Origin: Phycisphaerae bacterium
GTDB taxonomy: Bacteria > Planctomycetota > Phycisphaerae > UBA1845 > PWPN01
Assembly: GCA_012729395.1 (NCBI GenBank)
Contig: JAAYDF010000129.1
Span: 1-34,885 of the forward strand
Length of the DNA: 34,885 bases
Reading direction: 5' to 3'
Under the pieces are notes generated by a model, which saw only the letters and a program-made list of their open reading frames with translations, searched no databases and was not told the origin of the DNA. This document shows, piece by piece, positions 1,625-31,493 of the stretch; within the stretch, counting starts at the first letter, position 1, and every line of letters begins with the position of its first letter. A program made the translations under genes and the position numbers.

Positions 1625-4600
1625 ATGGCAGAGGAAAAAGTGATCGCGGCTGCGGCTCAGGCGTCCCCCAAGGGGCCGACTTCAGGACCGGGCAAGGCCA
1701 GGGCCAAGGCACCGGAGGCGTCCAACAGGGTCGACGGCACGAACCCAAGCATAGCCCTGACGGTGCTGATTGCCGTGGGACTGACGGCGGCCTTTTACGC
1801 CCTGTTGGTCTACCCGTTCGGTGCCGGCGACAAGGGAGGCGCGGCACACAAGTGGTATGAGCTGCTGGCCGAGCGCACCTGGGTCGTGCACGGCACCATC
1901 CTGCTATTCTTCTGGTCGCAGGCGATTCTGTTCGTGAAATACCGCAAGCTGACCCGCCAGCGTCGCGCCCTGGACCTGGACATTCTGCCGGAGCGACTAC
2001 CGAAGCGCATCAACGCGGAGAACGTGGATGTATTTCGTCAACAGGTAGCCGGCCTGTCGGTTCGCCCAGGGACGAGTTTCCTGGTGGACCGCATCCAGCG
2101 GGCGCTGGACCACTTCAAGGCCCGGGGCAACGTGCAAGAGGCGGCCACCATGGTCACCGTGCAGGGCGACTTAGACTCCGCCATGGTGCAATCGAGTTAC
2201 TCGATGCTCGGCGTTCTAAGCTGGGCCGTGCCGATCCTGGGCTTCATCGGGACTGTGTACGGTATTGGAGACGCGGTCGGCGGCTTCCGTCTGGCGTTGG
2301 ACGCTGCCGCGGATCTGACGCTCATCAAGGACGCCCTGGGCCAAGTGACCTTGGGTCTGGCGGTGGCGTTCGACACGACGTTGATCGCCCTGGTGCTGAG
2401 TCTGTTCATCGTCTTCCCCGCCCGCGGCTTGCAGAAGGTCGAAGAGGATCTGCTGTCGGAGGTCGATGACTACTGCGTGGAGAATCTGCTGCCTCGGCTG
2501 GAAGATGGTACGGGGCAGAACAACCAGATGCTCAACGCGGTCAAGGAGGCGGTTCAGGCGGCCCTTCCGAGCAAGGACTGGGTGAAGGACGCGGTCCGGG
2601 CGGCGATGGCGGCCCAGGAAGGCGAGTTCAAGAACTGGACGCTTCACTTGCAGAAGGCCGGGGCCGCTGTCAGCCAGCAGGTGGTCGAGGGCTGGGACAA
2701 CGTCAACCAGCAGTTGAAGGAAAGCCAGCAGGAGCAGTTGACGGGCATTCGCGGCTTGGCCGAGGAGATCGCCCGTGAACGGCAAACGTTCATTCAGCAG
2801 GTCCAGCAGGTCCAGGAGACGCAGGGCAAGCAGTTAACGACCACGGCGGCGACGATGAACGAGATGACCACGCGGGTCTCCAAGGAGATCGTCGGGCTGC
2901 AGGAGGCTCAGGTTCGTAGCTTCCAGGACGTGGTGGCGAAGCTGTCGGGCGACCTGCGAACGATCCAGACGCAGTCGAAGGAACAGCATGCCGCGGATGC
3001 GCAGGCCCTGCAGGGCATGAGCAACGCGTTTCTGCAGACGCTGCGTGAGATGCGTGAGCAGGCCGGCGCCACCCAGGCCGGCTGGAGCAAGCAAATCGCC
3101 GAGTTCGGCAGTGCCGTCACGCAGAAGGTCGTCGAGGGCTGGGAGTCGATTAACGCCCAACTTCGCGAGAGCCACGGCCAGCAGATCAAGGACGTTCAGG
3201 GCGTGCTGAACTCGGTGGCCACCGAGCGACGCGAGTTCATGGAACAGGTCAAGCAGGTGCAGGCATCGCAGCTCGCACAAGCGGCCGCGGCGACCAAGAC
3301 CATGGAGGAGACCGCCGGGCGCATCCAGCAGCAGATCACCCAGTTGCAGGAAAGCCAGGTGCGAAGCATGAAGGAATCGGTGACGGCGATCTCGCAGGAT
3401 TTGCAGAGCATGCAGAAGCAGACGGGCGTGGCCCAGGCGGAGGCGGGCAAGCACTTCGAGCAGCTTAGCGCCACCGTGACCCAGCAGGTGATGCAGGGCT
3501 GGGAGAAGATCGACGCCAAGCTGCGGGAACGGACCGAGGCCGAGGTGCGGGAGCTGTCCGGCGTGGTCAAGCAGATGGAAGAGACGGCCACACGGGTGCA
3601 GCGTCAGATCGCCGAAGCCCAGGAGGGTCAGGTGCGTGGGCTGCGTGAAGCGGTAGGCGGGATCGGTGGCGAGCTCCGCTCGGTCCGCGAGCAGGCGACG
3701 CAGCAGCAGCAGGCGGACGTGGAGAATCTGCAACGGATGGTCGGCTCGTTTTCGGAATCGTTGCGGGCGTTGCGTGAGCAGGCGACGGCGACGCAGCGTG
3801 ACATGGCCGAGAGCCTCAAGGGCAGCGGCACGACGGTGCGTGATGAGTTGCGGCGGATGAGCGGGGAGCTGGCTGAGGCGTTCCGGTCGCAGCTTCAGTC
3901 GGCGGAGCAGGTCCGCCGATCCGCGGAGGAGGGCGCGGAGAAGTTTGCCGCGAATCTGGAGCGGATGCGGTCCGCACACGCGGAAGGGATGAAGGAGGCA
4001 GCGGAGGTTCTGCGTGAGATGGCCCGGGCCAGCCAACAGGAGTTTTCGTCCTCGCAGACCGATTCGGCGCACAAGCTGCAGGAGATCGCCGCAGCCGTGG
4101 CCGAGCAAGGCCGAACCGCGCAGCGTGACATGGAGAGCACGCGTCAGGCGTTAACCGAGCTGGTCAAGCAGATGAGCCAGCAGGCGGACAAGACTCGCGA
4201 GATCGCCGAGCGGGCGGCCAAGGAGCAGTTGGCCGAGCTGTCGAACACGGCTCGCGGTCTGGTGACATCCGTGGGCGAGGGTCTCAGGGGTGTGCAGGAG
4301 AAAGCCGCGGCGGCGGATATGTCGCGGTTCGAGCAGACTCGCGAGCTGTTGGCTGAGCTGAAGCGCGAACGCGAGGAGATGCAGCGTGCGACGGCCGACC
4401 AACTGGGCCAGGTAGCGGCCATGGGCAAGGACTTAGTGGCCTCGCTGACCGAGGGCGAGCGGAAGCTGGCCGATCAGCTTACCCGCATGGCCGAGCTGAT
4501 GAAGGGAGGCGACAAGCTCGGCGAGATGCAGCGAACGCTATCGAGCAATCTGGAGATTCTCGCGACGGCGGACGCATTCAAGGAAACGTTGTCGGGCATC

Positions 4601-18515: not shown

Positions 18516-19778
18516 ATGCCCACCAGACCATCCCTGTCGCGACGCGAGTTTCTGGCCAGTTCCACGCGGACGGCTGCCGCTGTGGGACTCGGTGCCACAC
18601 TGGCCGGCCAGACCGCCAAGGCCGCTACCCGCAGAATCGGAGCCAACGACCGCATCACTCTCGGACTGATCGGTTGCGGGTCTCGCGGCACCTGGATCTC
18701 CCACTCGGCCCTCACCGCCGACAATGTCGTCTGCACGGCCCTGTGCGACGTCGGCGACTTCCGCATGGACGAAACCACCGCCAAAATCACCAAGCAGATG
18801 GAAGACAAGGGCCATCAGAACATCAAGATCGACCGCTACGAAGATTATCGCCGGCTGCTCGAACGCAAGGACCTCGACGCGGTCATGATCGCTACGCCGG
18901 ACCACTGGCACTTCGCCCCCTTCATGGCCGCCCTCGAAGCTGGCAAGCACATCTACATCGAGAAGCCGATGAGCTACTCCTATCTGCTGGGCATGGAGAT
19001 GGTCGCCGCCGCCCAAAAACATCCTGAGCTGACCATCCAGATCGGCACCCAGCGGCGCAGCGGGCGACAGTACGCCAAGGCCAAGGAGTTCCTCGACTCC
19101 GGCAAGCTCGGCAAGGTCAAACTGATTCACGCCCACGACACGCGCAACTGGTTCTTCGGCGATGACCCGTTCTTCCGCAAGGAGAAGCCCGCCGGCCGGC
19201 TGGACTGGGATCTCTTCGAGCAACCCTGCAAGAATAAACATCCCTTTGATCTCTATCGCTACTTCACGTGGCGATGGTATTGGGATTACGCCGGTGGACT
19301 GGTGACCGACGTCGGCGTGCACGTGATCGACATCGCCCAGTACTTCATGGGCGACGCCCCGCCCAAGTCGGCGGTCTGCAACGGCGGCGTATACACATAC
19401 GACAAATGGGAGACCCCCGATACCGTCCAGGCCGTCCTGGACTACGGAACGCATGCGCTGTCTTTCACCAGCAACTTCACGAATGAGCGGATGCGTGACG
19501 GCCTGTCGCTCTACGGGACCCACGGCACGATCGAGATCCTCGGCAACGACGTCTTCATCTGGGAAGAGGGCAAACGCGACAAGCCCGTCGCCCAGTTCCC
19601 CGCCGAGGACGACAACCATCAACACAACTGGCTCGCGTGCATCCGCAGCGGGGCCAAGCCCAACGCCCCGATCGAACTTGGGCATAGCTCGCTGCTGCCC
19701 AGTCATATGGCCAACCTCGCCTACCGACACGGCAAGAAGGTGACCTGGGATGCGCAGGCACGGAAAGTGGTAATGTGA
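18516..19778 (+). CDS. Tat-exported Gfo/Idh/MocA family oxidoreductase
   Basis: The 420-residue protein starts at ATG 18516 with GGAG upstream; the frame extends to 18438 without support. The N-terminus carries a twin-arginine signal (SLSRREFLASSTRTAAAVGL, ending with A-x-A-like TAKAATRR), so the folded protein is exported, as is common for this family in planctomycetes. The Rossmann fold follows: 'ITLGLIGCGSRG' (nucleotide-binding glycines), 'LDAVMIATPDHWH' and 'GKHIYIEKPMS' with the family's catalytic Lys. 'WYWDYAGGLVTDVGVHVIDIAQYFMG' (in part) carries the conserved 'G..TD.G.H..D' set. Family members oxidise or reduce sugars or cyclitols with NAD(P); the substrate is unknown. Its stop overlaps the next start by 4 bases (GTGA), so it is coupled to the phosphodiesterase gene. 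Confidence 0.9.
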   Translation: MPTRPSLSRREFLASSTRTAAAVGLGATLAGQTAKAATRRIGANDRITLGLIGCGSRGTWISHSALTADNVVCTALCDVGDFRMDETTAKITKQMEDKGHQNIKIDRYEDYRRLLERKDLDAVMIATPDHWHFAPFMAALEAGKHIYIEKPMSYSYLLGMEMVAAAQKHPELTIQIGTQRRSGRQYAKAKEFLDSGKLGKVKLIHAHDTRNWFFGDDPFFRKEKPAGRLDWDLFEQPCKNKHPFDLYRYFTWRWYWDYAGGLVTDVGVHVIDIAQYFMGDAPPKSAVCNGGVYTYDKWETPDTVQAVLDYGTHALSFTSNFTNERMRDGLSLYGTHGTIEILGNDVFIWEEGKRDKPVAQFPAEDDNHQHNWLACIRSGAKPNAPIELGHSSLLPSHMANLAYRHGKKVTWDAQARKVVM

Positions 19779-21664
19779 GCCCCATTCGGCAACCAGCATC
19801 ACATACGACAAGATTCTGGATAGCCCTGGCCGGGGCGATCCTCATGGCGGCTCTGCCGGCCGGCTGCAATGTGGATCGCCTCGGCCCCGCTCTGGCCGAC
19901 GATGTCGAGAAGCCCGAGCGTTCGGTCGTCATCTTCTTCCCCGACGGCATGGACCGCACTCGATTTCAGCAGCTCCTCGATTCAGGCGAGCTGCCCCACA
20001 TCCAAAGCCGCTTCGTCGAGCGAGGCGTCACCGTCCAACGCGCGTTCGACGCCTTGCCTTCGGTCACGTACGCCAACTGCTCGACGATGATCACCGGCTT
20101 GCTGCCGAGCCATCATGAGATCGCCGGCAACCTCTGGCTCGATCGACGCAACCTGACCACCGGCTACTACATGACCTTCGACCGCTACCTCATGGTCAAC
20201 GACCACCTCGACCGCCCCACGCTCTACAGCATGCTGGCCAACCATTTCACGCTCAACATTCAGAACCACACCCACCGCGGCGCGACCTGCTCGCTGCAAG
20301 GCAAGACGATTTTCGTTCTCAACTGGATCATCGCCAACTATGGCGGTGTAGACATTACCATTCCCACGCGTTTTCGTGAGGCCTTCGATCTGGCCAATCG
20401 GGTGAAACGCTGGCCCAGCGTGATCATGACCTACTTCCCCGGCGTCGACGAGATCGGGCACCAGTGGGGTCCCGATTCGCCGGAATACGCTCGGGCCCTG
20501 CGCAGGGTCGATGAGATCATCGGGCAGGTTGAAGGCATGGTCGAGCAAGCCGGCTTGGCCGACCGCACCTCGTACGTGCTGGTATCCGACCACGGCATGC
20601 CGCCCGTCGGGCAAGGCCAGCAGTTCCCGCTGGCCCGCTGGCTTCGGCCACATCGGGGCCTGCGCTTCCGCGACGCTCCCGTGGACCACGCCTCCTACGC
20701 GGATCGACACGCGATCATGGATCGGTACGACTCGTTCCTCGCCATCGGTGCCGACCGCTCCGCCCTGCTCCATCTGCGCGGCCAGCAGGGCTGGCACCAT
20801 CGCCCCACCGTCGAGCAGGTCGAAGCCTTCATCGACGCCGACCCGCCGCTGCACGAACTGCCCGCGGTGGACTGCGTGCTCTATCGCATCGACGCGAACA
20901 CCGTCAAGGTCCGCTCACGCCGCGGCGCCGCGTTGATCGAGCGATACCCTGAACCCGTTCATACATCCGGCACGCTTGATGCTGAGTGCGTAAACGCCAA
21001 GCAAAGCCACGGCCGTCAGGGAGCGGTGGCCCCCGTAGCGGCCGCCCCCCGCGGCGGCCGGGGTCACGAATCGCAGTCCCAAGAATATACAACCTCCCAG
21101 GACAGCCAGACTCCAGGGACCACGCCGCCGTGGCCGGCCGCCACAGCCTGCCCGTCGTGGCGGGGGGACGGCCGCTGCGATACGCAAAGGTCTCTGTACC
21201 GCATGACCATGCTCGAAGGCGACCCGCTGGGCTACCTGGATCTGCCTGAACTGGCGGACTTCATCCGCGCCGGCTGGCAGCCCTCGCGCCAATGGCTGTG
21301 CCGTACGGCCGACACCAACCATCCCGACTTCGTTCCCCAAGCCGCCGCGATGTTCGATTCGCCGCGAACCGGCGACGTGATCATCTTCGCCGCCACCGGC
21401 TGGGATTTCGGCGCCGCCCCACAGCGCGGGGCTCACGGTTCGTGCCTGCACCGCGATATGCACATTCCCCTCTTCTTTGCCGGCCCTGACCTGCCCTCTG
21501 GCGCCAGCATCCCTTGCGCCCGGCTGACCGACCTGACCCCCACCATCCTCGGGCTGCTCAACGAAGCCCACCGCCTCGACCACTTCCCCCCTCTCGACGG
21601 ACTCAATCTTGCCGACGACCTCCGCCAAGCCGGCGCGGCGATCAACCCCACGCCCCGCCCGTGA
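19775..21664 (+). CDS. Lipoprotein phosphodiesterase of the alkaline phosphatase superfamily, with in-frame insertion
   Basis: The 629-residue protein uses GTG 19775, overlapping the previous stop. A signal peptide with lipobox L-P-A-G-Cys31 indicates a membrane-anchored lipoprotein. It looks like a type I phosphodiesterase/nucleotide pyrophosphatase. Two-metal ligands can be followed: Asp57 (FFPDGMD), nucleophile Thr98 (SVTYAN..TMITGL), Asp225 and His229 (VDEIGHQWG), Asp272-His273 (SDHGM) and His554 (GAHGS). Between residues about 391 and 474 lies a low-complexity, Gly/Arg/Pro/Ser-rich stretch that the paralogue at 29774-31279 lacks; there the strand before the break runs almost directly into the shared '(Y)(R/E)..(L/W)EGDPL' block. 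The protein may still fold if this is a surface loop. Substrate unknown. The gene ends 83 bases from a converging hydrolase gene. Confidence 0.83.
   Translation: MSPIRQPASHTTRFWIALAGAILMAALPAGCNVDRLGPALADDVEKPERSVVIFFPDGMDRTRFQQLLDSGELPHIQSRFVERGVTVQRAFDALPSVTYANCSTMITGLLPSHHEIAGNLWLDRRNLTTGYYMTFDRYLMVNDHLDRPTLYSMLANHFTLNIQNHTHRGATCSLQGKTIFVLNWIIANYGGVDITIPTRFREAFDLANRVKRWPSVIMTYFPGVDEIGHQWGPDSPEYARALRRVDEIIGQVEGMVEQAGLADRTSYVLVSDHGMPPVGQGQQFPLARWLRPHRGLRFRDAPVDHASYADRHAIMDRYDSFLAIGADRSALLHLRGQQGWHHRPTVEQVEAFIDADPPLHELPAVDCVLYRIDANTVKVRSRRGAALIERYPEPVHTSGTLDAECVNAKQSHGRQGAVAPVAAAPRGGRGHESQSQEYTTSQDSQTPGTTPPWPAATACPSWRGDGRCDTQRSLYRMTMLEGDPLGYLDLPELADFIRAGWQPSRQWLCRTADTNHPDFVPQAAAMFDSPRTGDVIIFAATGWDFGAAPQRGAHGSCLHRDMHIPLFFAGPDLPSGASIPCARLTDLTPTILGLLNEAHRLDHFPPLDGLNLADDLRQAGAAINPTPRP
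20945..21196. repeat. Repeat-like insertion kept in frame within the phosphodiesterase gene
   Basis: About 252 bases (84 codons) interrupt conserved sequence without breaking the frame. It contains a strong imperfect hairpin at 21026-21067 (GGCCGCC at 21040-21046 pairs with GGCGGCC at 21053-21059, extended by GTGGCCCC/GGGGTCAC). The core CCGTCAGGGAGCGG just upstream is a string I recall, without being able to check, as very frequent in planctomycete intergenic DNA. The encoded peptide has no domain character. The boundaries are estimated from comparison with the paralogue. Confidence 0.5.
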
Positions 21665-23248: not shown

Positions 23249-25684
23249 ATGCCCAGCGAATACTCCGAAACAGACACACCCACGCTACCGTCTCGCCCGG
23301 CAACCCCGGTCCGAGCGAACTTGCCCGCAGCCCCTGGGTCGGCCGTCGATACGCCCAGTATCCCGAGCGCCCACTCTCTCGCCTGCACCGTGCTGGTCCT
23401 GGTGATCCTCACCGGCGCAACCCTCGCCGCTCACGGCTGGTCGCTCGCCGACGGGCTCTTCCTCGATGACCACTGGCACCGCCTCCGCCTCGCGGAGAAC
23501 GACTGGTCCTTCTCCGCCCTGCTCGAGGCCGCCACCATCCAACCCGACCGCTTCATCGACACCTGGTGGCAGGAGAAGCCGGTCAGTTGGCATTACCTTC
23601 GCCCGTTCGCCATCCTCGTCGCCAAGTCCGTATACCACCTCTCCGACGGAAGCGTCAAGGCATGGCACGCGGTCAGCATCGTCGCCCACTGGCTCAATAC
23701 GCTGCTGATCTACCAACTGGCCCTGTGGCTCACCCGCCGCCGGCTTTGGTCGCTCGTGGCAGGGCTGCTCTTCGTCGTCTATTCGCACAACGTCTACGCC
23801 GTCGCCTGGCTCGCCGCCCAGAATATCATCCTGCAAACCTTCCTCATGCTCGCCGCCTTGATGTGCTATGTCCGGGCCTCGCGACTGGATCTCTATGCGG
23901 GACCGCGGGCCACGAGTCAGAGTGCGCCCGCCGACACGACTCCGCCGATCCGCCTCGGCCTGCTAACCTGCAGCATGCTCCTGTGGGCCATGGCCCTGTT
24001 CTCCCGAGAAAACGCCGTCGTCCTGCCCGCAATTCTGGCCGCCCTCGACTTGGCCTTCGGCGGACGCCGCCACCTCCGTGCCCGCTGGCCCGTCTATGCT
24101 CTGCTCTTCGCCTTCGCCGCCGCTTTCACCTTGTGGCGCATCTTCATCTTCGACCACCCCATGCCCGACTTCTACATCCGTCGGCCGCACGGCGACTGGC
24201 CCGAGTACCTCGGCTGGTGTCTGGTCAAGCTCATGCACTTCTGCACCGCGGCCATCTGGCTTTCGCCGATGACCGTCGGGCCCAGCGGCCGCTTCAACCC
24301 GCTGATCGAAGTCCCCGGTGACTGCCTGCTCATGGCGGTCATCCTCGGCGTCATGGGCGGCTATTACTACTTCGCGACCCGGCGGGTCCGCGGCTGGTGG
24401 ATCTGGCCGTTGTGGATTCTGCTGTCACTCCTGCCCGTCGTCCCGCTGCTGGCCACGCCGCACTCCGGCTACATGCCCAGCGTCGCCTTCGCCATCGGCA
24501 TGGCCCTGGCCCCCGCCCTGCGTCGCGAGCTACCCGCCGGCCGAGCCAGCCGCTACAGCGCCGGCGTCGCCACCTGGTTCCTCATCGCCACCACGATCTA
24601 CATGCCCATCTACCACCCGATGTGGTACTCGTTCCTCGCGGCCGAGCGCGTGACCATTCAACGCATCCTCAATGATCCGCCACCCGCCACCGCCGCCGAC
24701 CTGTTCTTCATCAACCTGCCGTTCACGAACGTCTACGGCCAACTGCACCTCCGGCACGCGTGGGGCCTTGATCCCTCACCGCCCGGCACGCGCATCGAGG
24801 ACTTCCTCGGCGAGTTGCCGCCCGACTTCGACCCGGCCATCCTGGCCCGTGGGCCGCGAACCGACTTCCGCCTCCACGCCCTCACCTACGCCCCAGATGT
24901 CCTGCACATGGACCAGACGTGTCGCATCGAGCAGCTTGACGATCACAGCTTCTCATTGGCTATTGAGGGCCGTCCGTATTTTGGCGGCACGCTCGGGCGG
25001 TTTCTCGTGGAAGGCATGCGAGCATCCGGACCGTTCACGACCGGGCAGGAGGTGATCGCCCCGCGATACACCGTCAAGATCGCCCAAGCCGACGACCACG
25101 GCGTCTGGAAACTCGTCTTCCGCTTCCGTGAGCCCCTGGCCAGTGAACGCCACGCCTTCTACCTGGCCACCACCGAATGTGCCGCCGTCCGGCTGCGTTT
25201 TCGGCCGCCCGACACCTCACCTCTCAGCGATCCGCCTCCCGCGTCGGTCAGCCCGGCCGAGGTCGAGCAAGCCGCCCAACACTTGGCTCAGGGTGACGCC
25301 AAGGCCGCCGAGGTCCTCTTCGCCGCCGCCGGGGCAACCGATCCTCAGCTCGCCCAACCCGCCCGCGCCGCACTCCGCCAAGTGGGTTCGACCGTCGCCC
25401 GTGCCCTCGCCGCCCCCGCTCTCGATGTGTGGACTGACACGCGCCAGGATGACCCCGCCGCATGGGCCGACGCTCGCGACTGGTGGCTTCAGCACGTCGA
25501 CGACCAGACCCTTCGAGCTGTCCACCAAGACCCCGCCCACTTCGCTACCCTCCGCTGGACCCGCGGCAGCCTCTTCAGAATCCGGCACACCGCCAGCCGG
25601 ATCATCCGGACCGACGCTTACTTGACCGGGCCGCCCTTCCCCGGGCCCCGAGAAAGCATTGGCGAATCGGCCTCTCCGCGATAG
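23249..25684 (+). CDS. Polytopic GT-C-like membrane protein (putative glycosyltransferase)
   Basis: The 811-residue protein starts at ATG 23249; a TTG at 23192 would extend it into the divergent promoter region. After a Pro/Ser/Thr-rich N-terminus, a first span (LACTVLVLVILTGATLAAHG) leads to 'GLFLDDHWHRL' with Asp73-Asp74, the acidic loop after helix 1 that is typical of GT-C enzymes (PMT/ArnT/GT39). About ten more hydrophobic segments reach residue 470. The last 330 residues are soluble: a beta-rich part (about 500-640) and an Ala-rich helical part with a 'QAAQHLAQGDAKAAEVLF' segment that looks like a TPR or HEAT-type helical repeat. GT-C enzymes transfer sugars from lipid-phosphate donors on the outer face of the membrane. 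No partner glycan gene is nearby, so donor and acceptor are unknown. No clear ribosome site is visible. Confidence 0.65.
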   Translation: MPSEYSETDTPTLPSRPATPVRANLPAAPGSAVDTPSIPSAHSLACTVLVLVILTGATLAAHGWSLADGLFLDDHWHRLRLAENDWSFSALLEAATIQPDRFIDTWWQEKPVSWHYLRPFAILVAKSVYHLSDGSVKAWHAVSIVAHWLNTLLIYQLALWLTRRRLWSLVAGLLFVVYSHNVYAVAWLAAQNIILQTFLMLAALMCYVRASRLDLYAGPRATSQSAPADTTPPIRLGLLTCSMLLWAMALFSRENAVVLPAILAALDLAFGGRRHLRARWPVYALLFAFAAAFTLWRIFIFDHPMPDFYIRRPHGDWPEYLGWCLVKLMHFCTAAIWLSPMTVGPSGRFNPLIEVPGDCLLMAVILGVMGGYYYFATRRVRGWWIWPLWILLSLLPVVPLLATPHSGYMPSVAFAIGMALAPALRRELPAGRASRYSAGVATWFLIATTIYMPIYHPMWYSFLAAERVTIQRILNDPPPATAADLFFINLPFTNVYGQLHLRHAWGLDPSPPGTRIEDFLGELPPDFDPAILARGPRTDFRLHALTYAPDVLHMDQTCRIEQLDDHSFSLAIEGRPYFGGTLGRFLVEGMRASGPFTTGQEVIAPRYTVKIAQADDHGVWKLVFRFREPLASERHAFYLATTECAAVRLRFRPPDTSPLSDPPPASVSPAEVEQAAQHLAQGDAKAAEVLFAAAGATDPQLAQPARAALRQVGSTVARALAAPALDVWTDTRQDDPAAWADARDWWLQHVDDQTLRAVHQDPAHFATLRWTRGSLFRIRHTASRIIRTDAYLTGPPFPGPRESIGESASPR

Positions 25685-29773: not shown

Positions 29774-31279
29774 CTACTCGCACAGCGGTACGCCCGCCTC
29801 GCACAGCGCCGCTCGCAGGTCGGCCAGACGCAGCACGCGCGGCAACGCACCGGCCATCGTCATGCCCATCCCGTTCGAGCTCGACGCCCGCAGACTCCCG
29901 TGTGCTGCCTGCAACGAGATCAGCGTCGACTGCAGCGGGCTGCCGAAATGCCAGCCATCCTCGATACTGAGCAAGACATCCGGCGTGTGCGTCACCAAGC
30001 CGTGAAACGCTCGCCACAACCGGGCCACCACGTCCGGGTACACATGATCCGCCGTCGCCTCGAACAGCACGCGATCAGCCACCTCACCCGCGGGCCCGAC
30101 CAGTCCCTCCTGCCGCAAACGCTCCCACACCAACCCCAGTTCCAGCGGATCGCCCTCCCACGGCTCATACCGGAAGCCATCCACGGTGCGGCCAATCCGC
30201 GCCCGGCCCGTCTTGCTCAACACCACCAGCGAGTCCTCGCCATCACGGTACGCCGCCAACTCCACCCCCTCGACGCCAATCACATCTCCCGCCACGCGAG
30301 CCGGCTCATGCGTGTGCAGAGCCACACAGGTCACCATCCCAAACTCCGGCAGCACCACGTCGCCCGGCCGGTCCAGCGATGACCGCACCCGATAGCCCAT
30401 CCGCTCAAGCAGCCGACCCAGCCGAAGCCGCCGACTGGCCACCAGATTATGCCCGTGATCGCTCAAAAGCGTCACCCGCACCCGCCCCCGTGTCGCGTGT
30501 ACCAGCGTGCGGCACAACCGGTCCACCTGGACCAGCGCATCCGCGTGCCCGTTGCGACCCGCCCGGGCCCCTTGTGCCGACGTGCCTACCACATAAACCA
30601 CCGTCAGCTTCTCGCCGCGCTCGTACCGCTCCATGAACAGCCGCTGGATCCGACCCAGCTCGTGATGAAACCACGGGCGATAGTCAAGATAGGCCAGCGA
30701 ATGCATCGTCGGCCGAAGCCCGTAATCGACCCCCGCACGCCACGGCGTGTTGCCGCCTTCGGCATAAACAAAGTATCCCGCGGTCAGCCGCCGACCGTCA
30801 AAGTACTCCGACTCGATACCCGGACACGGGGCCATGCCGAAAAACTCCGTCAGGGCCGTGTCCGTCATCACCGGAAATGGACTGACCACCTGCGAAGGCG
30901 GTGCAAAATATCGCAGCCGACCGTGCCGCCACACCTCGTCGGCGATCGCGATCGGGATGCTGTCCAGGATAATCACCAGGTGCCGCTGTTCCTCCACTGG
31001 AACAGACGCCAGGTCGATCTCCTCATCGACCCGCCCGTCCTCGTTCGTGTCGTAGCCGATCGCAGCAATCCGACCGTCGCTCGCCAGAATCTCGCGGAAG
31101 TCCGCTCGCCCGCTGCCGTCGGTATCGTACCCGTACGCCAGCCGCTCGCCGGGCAGTGTTTCGCTCGCGACCGGCACTGCCGGCACCAGCCGGGCTCCAG
31201 GCCCCGCGCACCCCGCGCCACATGCCGTCGCCACAATCCCACAAGCCGCAATCGCCAGCGCAAGCAACAAGCCCCTCAC
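29774..31279 (-). CDS. Alkaline-phosphatase-like lipoprotein with EF-hand loops and altered metal site
   Basis: The 501-residue protein starts at GTG (ending at 31279), preceded by AGGGG at 7 bases; the frame extends to 31390 without support. The signal peptide contains several Cys (IVATACGAGC), so it is probably a lipoprotein. Two EF-hand-type calcium loops follow: DTDGSGRADF (about 52-61) and DTNEDGRVDEE (about 77-87). The remainder aligns with the phosphodiesterase at 19775-21664. Asp106 (LDS), Thr139 (VMTDT), Asp-His 274-275 (LLSDHGH) and the C-terminal AAHGS His are kept. The segment equal to VDEIGHQWG there reads TSAQGARAG here, so the Asp and His ligands of one metal are lost. It may bind rather than cleave, or use one metal. 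It lies 117 bases upstream of the fused membrane gene on the same strand. Confidence 0.75.
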   Translation of the reverse strand: MRGLLLALAIAACGIVATACGAGCAGPGARLVPAVPVASETLPGERLAYGYDTDGSGRADFREILASDGRIAAIGYDTNEDGRVDEEIDLASVPVEEQRHLVIILDSIPIAIADEVWRHGRLRYFAPPSQVVSPFPVMTDTALTEFFGMAPCPGIESEYFDGRRLTAGYFVYAEGGNTPWRAGVDYGLRPTMHSLAYLDYRPWFHHELGRIQRLFMERYERGEKLTVVYVVGTSAQGARAGRNGHADALVQVDRLCRTLVHATRGRVRVTLLSDHGHNLVASRRLRLGRLLERMGYRVRSSLDRPGDVVLPEFGMVTCVALHTHEPARVAGDVIGVEGVELAAYRDGEDSLVVLSKTGRARIGRTVDGFRYEPWEGDPLELGLVWERLRQEGLVGPAGEVADRVLFEATADHVYPDVVARLWRAFHGLVTHTPDVLLSIEDGWHFGSPLQSTLISLQAAHGSLRASSSNGMGMTMAGALPRVLRLADLRAALCEAGVPLCE

Positions 31280-31493
31280 GCCTTCGCCCCTAACTAACCC
31301 CGCTGACCCACACTTCTCAATTCGCACTGCTGACTTCTCGCTTCTCGCTGACAACGTTTCACATCTCACTTGCAGCGTCGCACGTCCCACGTCTCACGTA
31401 CAACGCCGCACGTCCCCAACCCGCCCACGCCTCCGTGCCTCTACCCCTTCCGCCTCTGTGCCTCCGTGCCTTCTGCCTTTGCGCCTTCTCCCC
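31280..31493. repeat. Degenerate short-unit repeats between two minus-strand genes
   Basis: 31320-31420 is built of 6-9-base units such as ACTTCTC and CACGTCTCACGT. 31425-31490 repeats 'CCTCCGTGCCT/CCTCTGTGCCT', the same word family as the arms of the inverted repeat at 33083-33236. I see no gene; the strand is pyrimidine-rich on plus. Confidence 0.55.

Follow-up and report, generated by a model that had tools for sequence, protein, structure and literature searches.

A GTAG-tagged REP pair, very probably inserted in frame, in a predicted phosphodiesterase lipoprotein of a Phycisphaerae bacterium

How does a gene come to contain a palindromic repeat and go on encoding what looks like an intact enzyme? 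The question is raised by one open reading frame of the window (by which we mean the whole stretch of DNA analysed, 34,885 nucleotides from a Phycisphaerae bacterium), in which the first-pass annotation had seen a hairpin repeat absorbed in frame into an exported phosphodiesterase.

The frame is called as a gene on its coding score (97) and matches the phosphodiesterase family PF01663 with an E-value of 6.3e-36 (Pfam). A hydrophobic N-terminal segment ends, lipobox-like, at Cys31, a residue invariant in 27 aligned members of the family; the product is probably a lipoprotein. From knowledge of the family we take D57, T98, D225, H229, D272, H273 and H554 to be the active site. All seven predicted residues are retained in the insert-bearing protein: the first six are present in every one of the 30 aligned rows, and H554 in all but one row, where there is a gap. 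The earlier comparison rested on a paralogue encoded on the minus strand of the same window (29774–31390). It does have a short spacer at this point; it is a distant relative (28% identical), and orthologues, which agree with it, make the sounder comparison. The translated paralogue contains calcium-repeat-like segments (DTDGSGRADF and DTNEDGRVDE) and, when aligned with the insert-bearing protein, is missing several of the predicted active-site residues; possibly it is a member of the family without activity.

The orthologues come from a search of 60 relatives, all outside the source genus. Homologues were matched in 42, among which the "EGDPL" block and the strand that precedes it behave as parts of one protein family; 29 loci were fetched and aligned (L032–L060), and the other 13 are represented by match tables only. 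One fetched locus (L058) is without the region, leaving 28 complete orthologues. Between anchor residues 388 and 479 the protein has 92 residues, as against exactly 16 in 24 of the 28 and 18, 20, 25 and 25 in the other four. None of the 28 has a domain of similar length at this point, and the insertion is, by alignment, missing from orthologues. A scan of named genomes added a single orthologue (L071, Phycisphaerae), whose segment in the alignment is identical to that of G007. The insert amounts to a net 76 codons, because 92 residues stand where orthologues have 16; the earlier figure of about 84 codons without a stop was therefore right about the stop and too long. The reading frame of the insert is open throughout, and the other two forward frames contain stops. 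One predicted tryptic peptide spanning or inside residues 385–480 is GHESQSQEYTTSQDSQTPGTTPPWPAATACPSWR.

Table 1. Features of the phosphodiesterase gene and its insert, in window coordinates.
Feature	Position	Strand	Basis
Host gene, type I phosphodiesterase/nucleotide pyrophosphatase family protein, 629 aa	19775..21664	+	PF01663, gene call
Net in-frame insertion, 228 nt = 76 codons, residues 393–468	20951..21178	+	orthologue alignment; ends good to a few codons
Left part of insert, without genome match	20951..21006	+	own-genome search
Hairpin of the CCGTNAGGGAGCGG repeat family, exact 14-mer at 21013–21026	21007..21029	+	sequence match
GTAG-tagged REP, short-loop form, stem CGGCCGCC/GGCGGCCG	21035..21061	+	model R1, 47 bits, E 4e-9
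Head-to-head REP pair, GTAG ends outside, 144 nt = 48 codons	21035..21178	+	right end = protein-level insertion boundary
Spacer of REP pair, mostly without other genome copies	21062..21133	.	own-genome matches cluster on REP cores and hairpin region
Second REP, long-loop form, inverted, tail GCAG not GTAG	21134..21178	-	model R1, 21.7 bits, E 0.005

The insert is composite (Table 1). Its most conspicuous part is a pair of REPs. The first arm consists of GTAG followed by an 8-bp GC stem and a 6-nt loop; the second has the same stem and a longer loop, is of a type also seen at L079, L122 and other loci, and has an 88% match elsewhere in the genome (C26:9242–9292). A BLAST search of the stretch against its own genome yields 69 matching places with E no higher than 1, a count that includes the window itself, and nearly all fall on two short cores, sparing the left part and the central spacer; up to the same E-value no match covers the left part, save for its last few bases. 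At the edges of the insert the heptamer GCGATAC occurs twice (20941–20947 and 21177–21183). We rejected it as a target-site duplication: the copies lie 236 nt apart, and since that is no multiple of three the heptamer ill fits a simple in-frame insertion with target duplication.

Counted across the genome, the REP head GTAGCGGYCGCC has 338 occurrences, compared to 29 for a reversed control. Among the 31 genomes searched, G010 has 55 copies (control 8) and 29 others have 0–12. With 338 head matches and 69 BLAST places, other genomic copies are thus many; neither outcome that the first-pass annotation gave as counting against its idea, a shared domain of this length in orthologues or a lack of further copies, is observed. 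In order to examine the stem we used those REP copies with a readable short-form tail, 52 of 100. The variable stem pair is T-A in 27, C-G in 23 and T-G or C-A in 2. For the covariance model R1 we selected 13 sequences out of 18 distinct copies whose tail could be read. Here the varying pair is C-G in six, U-A in five, U-G in one and unpaired in one; 99% of stem cells are paired, compared to 17–69% in slid controls, and the covariation score was reached by 11 of 500 shuffles. Because seven of the eight pairs are invariant, the support from paired changes rests on one stem pair. When adjacent REPs are taken two by two (tandem arrays pair by pair), 14 of 34 pairs are head to head with GTAG outside (+/-), one is -/+ and 19 lie on the same strand. 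On matches to the head and to R1, the palindromes of the insert belong to this high-copy REP family of their own genome. Two weaker matches to R1 in the window, both on the minus strand and inside called genes (18604–18628, 18.6 bits, E 0.029; 24537–24556, 16.1 bits, E 0.11), are probably due to chance.

Beside the REP pair lies a hairpin of another kind, without the GTAG tag. Its longer 16-mer form, GACCGTNAGGGAGCGG, has 58 copies in the genome and none in the control, and is present in 18 of the 31 genomes searched, reaching 220 copies in G015. The copy in the insert (21013–21026) has no match in Rfam, and a text search of papers for the repeat sequences showed no bacterial-repeat paper, by title, among the matches listed. 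The GACCGTNAGGGAGCGG family also flanks a free Y1 gene of G017 on both sides (L157:1361 and 3340), and inverted CCGTNAGGGAGCGG hairpins lie at or just inside the ends of the second Y1 match of an alanyl-tRNA synthetase (AlaRS) in G025 (L155:2453 and 3111). What had been labelled low-complexity, hairpin-forming DNA is better described as a defined GTAG REP pair plus a second hairpin repeat: the case for the hairpin rests on its match to a repeat family, with no folding anomaly apparent. The RNA fold of 20945–21196 is no better than that of dinucleotide shuffles (z -1.15), of which 29 in 200 do equally well, and folding energy was dropped as an argument.

Very probably, then, DNA carrying a head-to-head GTAG REP pair and the adjoining second hairpin repeat has been inserted in a turn between two beta-strands of the phosphodiesterase lipoprotein; the gap in orthologues, the matches to the REP model and the open frame bear out the original suggestion of a dispersed palindromic element absorbed in frame. 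As to how it arrived, published work (PMC3116915, PMC6006769) leads us to infer that a Y1/HUH transposase, RAYT or IS200-like, copies and moves REP pairs by way of single-stranded DNA. One copy would then have landed in the phosphodiesterase gene, where the reading frame would have been kept by chance, palindromes being stop-poor, and the cell would have survived with the peptide extruded as a disordered surface loop. On this view the insert would be carried along as a passenger that the protein tolerates, adding about 76 translated residues, with no sign of a function of its own.

Candidate transposases are at hand. The genome has 11 Y1/HUH matches, 10 of them over the Pfam cut-off. One (L062) lies between direct copies of 153 nt, 98% identical, each with a head-to-head REP pair; against NCBIfam it scores 63.3 bits with NF033573 (IS200/IS605; cut-off 55) and 21.1 with REP_Tyr_transpos, for which 80 is needed. 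Only one of the eight Y1-bearing frames scanned (L068, at 94.5) exceeds the RAYT (REP-associated transposase) cut-off, and no clear REP of the GTAGCGGYCGCC family lies beside it. The inserted unit in the phosphodiesterase exceeds the REP pair by 84 nt on the left, 56 of which have no match in the genome; the insert may therefore be more than the product of a single clean transposition event.

The structure model gives some indication of how the extra residues could be accommodated. An AlphaFold model made with three alignment rows is poor overall (mean pLDDT 45.8), so only its local pattern was used: a strand at 384–392, residues 393–471 at pLDDT below 50, and a strand at 473–482. The insert is thus placed between two predicted beta-strands. 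As to the frame, we took 228-nt windows centred on intergenic REPs (n = 78) and found 85 of 468 frames open (18%); for generic non-coding windows of the same length the figure is 26%. No special design has to be invoked for the frame to have survived, because 18% of frames in REP windows are open and one length in three is in frame. Equally, an open frame alone is weak proof, because generic non-coding DNA is open even more often.

These open-frame rates are also what speaks for a different history, in which the insertion inactivated the gene, so that what we see is a recent pseudogene with a frame that merely happens to be open. We think this unlikely: coding scores are 75.7 upstream of the insert and 22.0 downstream, neither flank contains a stop or a frameshift, the predicted active site is retained seven for seven, and in two more genes of this genome variable loops contain in-frame REPs (below). 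A contig misjoined at a repeated REP core is an error to be feared in an assembly of 370 contigs, several of which (C8, C79, C89 and C100) start or end at REPs. The flanks, however, are halves of one protein family that rejoin in frame, and a false join at a repeat of 27 nt would not put the same gene back together; moreover, the left part and the spacer of the insert are unique in the genome, which makes an artefact of this kind highly improbable.

There is very little to recommend the idea that the stretch is a selected functional domain, a linker or tether for example, which resembles the repeats by coincidence. Loop length does vary somewhat among orthologues (16–25 residues), but none approaches the length seen here, the match to the repeat family is at nucleotide level and in both orientations, and the very low model confidence is that of disordered segments. 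Removal after transcription or translation, as an intron or intein, would account for an in-frame position within a conserved gene. It is nonetheless extremely improbable, given that the window has no Rfam match at the gathering threshold, that much of the insert matches REPs and not a ribozyme, and that in the protein Pfam detects phosphodiesterase and sulfatase families alone (E up to 0.001), with no splicing domain. Insertion of REP-bearing DNA, tolerated in frame, is accordingly the reading that we carry forward.

If the phosphodiesterase carries a REP within its coding sequence, then one may ask where other members of the family reside. A first sample comprised the window and 60 stretches round the first listed sites (400 kb), with genes called by a self-trained three-periodic model. 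Of the 71 REP clusters that it contains, 52 fall between genes, 13 overlap the end of a gene and six lie inside gene calls. Five of these six were set aside, three (L107, L108 and L116) because they match by chance within normal coding sequence and two (L086 and L124) because they lie upstream of likely true starts, so that the phosphodiesterase is the remaining inside-gene case. The second sample was taken from the best BLAST matches to the insert and is hence biased; of its 26 clusters, 18 are intergenic, six are at gene ends and two are inside genes. Together the samples hold 90 distinct clusters with 134 sites (by a slightly relaxed pattern), compared to 338 exact head matches genome-wide. 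Most sampled REPs of this genome are intergenic. At gene ends the TAG of the REP's GTAG can double as the stop codon of the adjoining gene; this is so for nine genes in the first sample and for five in the second, with three places shared (loci include L085, L087, L088, L090, L080, L089, L104, L116 and L119).

Two further genes have in-frame REPs where their relatives are shorter. The first, L003, encodes a protein of 808 aa with no Pfam family and has 78 residues at the REP, compared to 20–40 in 11 orthologues; its REP is read in the same frame as that of the phosphodiesterase, VAAAPRGGRG being common to both. In the second, L022, a VKOR-DsbA protein, there are 64 residues compared to 22–54 in nine homologues, and on these alignments it is the weaker of the two cases.

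A search for the Y1 domains themselves led to genes of a different class. One of the matches in the source genome lies inside an 844-aa PurH frame (L164:1814–4345, minus strand, equivalent to G000:C317; also L069). PurH was sought in 31 genomes; G012 has a fragment and G004 and G017 gave no match, leaving 28. In six of these (G000, G022, G018, G028, G015 and G025; loci of this set: L158–L162 and L164) PurH carries extra sequence and measures 844–965 aa, compared to 496–647 aa in the other 22. By alignment, all six extra stretches lie in one and the same loop; they represent two Y1 types, and they retain an HUH motif and a tyrosine. Pfam was run on five of the six: the Y1 score is over the cut-off in G000, G022 and G025 and below it in G015 (16.6 bits), and G028 gave no match, so that for G015, G028 and G018 the Y1 assignment rests on the alignment.

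PurH is not the only host. Pfam places Y1 domains in frame in the leucyl-tRNA synthetase (LeuRS) of G013 (1158 aa), in the IleRS of G050 (1541 aa), in an MmeI-type methyltransferase of G051 (1486 aa) and, as two separate stretches, in the AlaRS of G025 (at least 1574 aa); in the ValRS of G013 (1427 aa) the in-frame match scores 22.7 bits, just below the cut-off of 23 (loci of this set: L152, L153, L155, L195 and L194).

Some of the embedded elements have hairpin-forming ends of their own. The PurH element of the source genome is bounded by 34-nt inverted repeats (L164:2650–2683 and 3354–3387) containing the 16-mer GCGGGCTTCAGCCCGC, which has 45 matches in that genome and none in the control. 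The same 16-mer stands on both sides of the G018 element (G018:C1:459905 and 460591) and also within the PurH of G010, which is without a Y1 domain (G010:C339:2721); it is as if one site held an autonomous element in two genomes and a solo copy in another. No inverted repeats of at least 14 nt were found round the elements of G022 and G028. A comparison of G022 with G018 gives dN 0.106 and dS 0.659 for the embedded core (dN/dS about 0.16), and dN 0.073 and dS 0.652 for the C-terminal part of PurH. The similarity of the two suggests that the core is translated, and constrained, in that frame.

On balance, we lean towards the view that in this order REP-type elements regularly shelter in protein-coding genes: non-autonomous REP pairs in frame in ordinary genes like that of the phosphodiesterase, and HUH transposases, some with their own hairpins, in frame in loops of PurH, LeuRS, ValRS, IleRS and AlaRS, where they would be translated, unspliced and under purifying selection, leading an intein-like life without splicing. 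Were this so, an imprecise deletion of an embedded element would cost the cell an essential enzyme. If the transposase genes are translated with their hosts, then they can persist in essential proteins without splicing, which would provide one answer to how REP/transposase systems endure in genomes over the long term. Literature searches, which covered few subscription journals, showed no title on transposases in frame inside housekeeping enzymes among the matches listed, and the available text of PMC3733652 concerns REPs, not transposases, inside genes; to the extent of that text, the in-frame HUH transposases in essential enzymes go beyond reports of REPs inside genes.

The REP in the phosphodiesterase, by contrast, is a known type of event. 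As far as the available text of Di Nocera, De Gregorio and Rocco (2013, PMC3733652) goes, GTAG and CGTC REPs occur in more than 80 species of eight phyla, Planctomycetes included. In-frame intragenic REPs are reported there from several species, most of the GTAG ones from Opitutus terrae, a relative in the PVC group; in some other species in-frame clusters encode 43–82 aa. The same text describes REPs whose TAG is the stop codon of neighbouring genes, and GYAG variants of the tag in some GTAG families. It also draws the analogy between in-frame GTAG REPs and the Rickettsia elements, and does so for other phyla; the first-pass annotation, in likening the insert to those elements, was correct that this is another phylum, and the likeness itself dates from 2013.

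The repeat shares with the GTAG superfamily, as that source presents it, the GTAG tail, the 8-bp GC-rich stem, variants of loop length, a head-to-head dimer in the case of the insert, a mostly intergenic location, the TAG used as a neighbour's stop codon and the existence of in-frame copies. It differs in its extra non-GTAG hairpin and unique left part, in its host (a lipoprotein phosphodiesterase), in having one arm tagged GCAG and in the commonness of same-strand pairs. In the other features tested, the insert fits the superfamily, of which that source distinguishes 24 families.

Other systems resemble it in part. With REPINs and RAYTs, as set out in the available text of Bertels and Rainey (2011, PMC3116915), it shares dispersed inverted REP doublets and the presence of Y1 genes, one of them bracketed here by REP pairs; the bracketed transposase, however, scores as IS200-like and not as a RAYT, and the doublets are mixed with tandem arrays. 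In tnpA-REP subclass 2.4, on the portion of PMC6006769 available, REPs likewise sit non-disruptively and in frame in a peripheral protein extension, but there the host is the transposase itself and here it is an unrelated enzyme. The palindromic elements of Rickettsia (RPEs) have in common with the insert that they are in-frame palindromic repeats within functional genes. RPE-4 and RPE-6 belong to the CGTC superfamily according to PMC3733652, whereas the repeat here is tagged GTAG or GCAG; set apart by the tag as described in that text, the REP of the insert is closer to the GTAG REPs than to RPE-4 and RPE-6. The phosphodiesterase thus adds one more orthologue-calibrated case of a REP turned protein, for which the loop, the reading frame and the repeat composition are all given.
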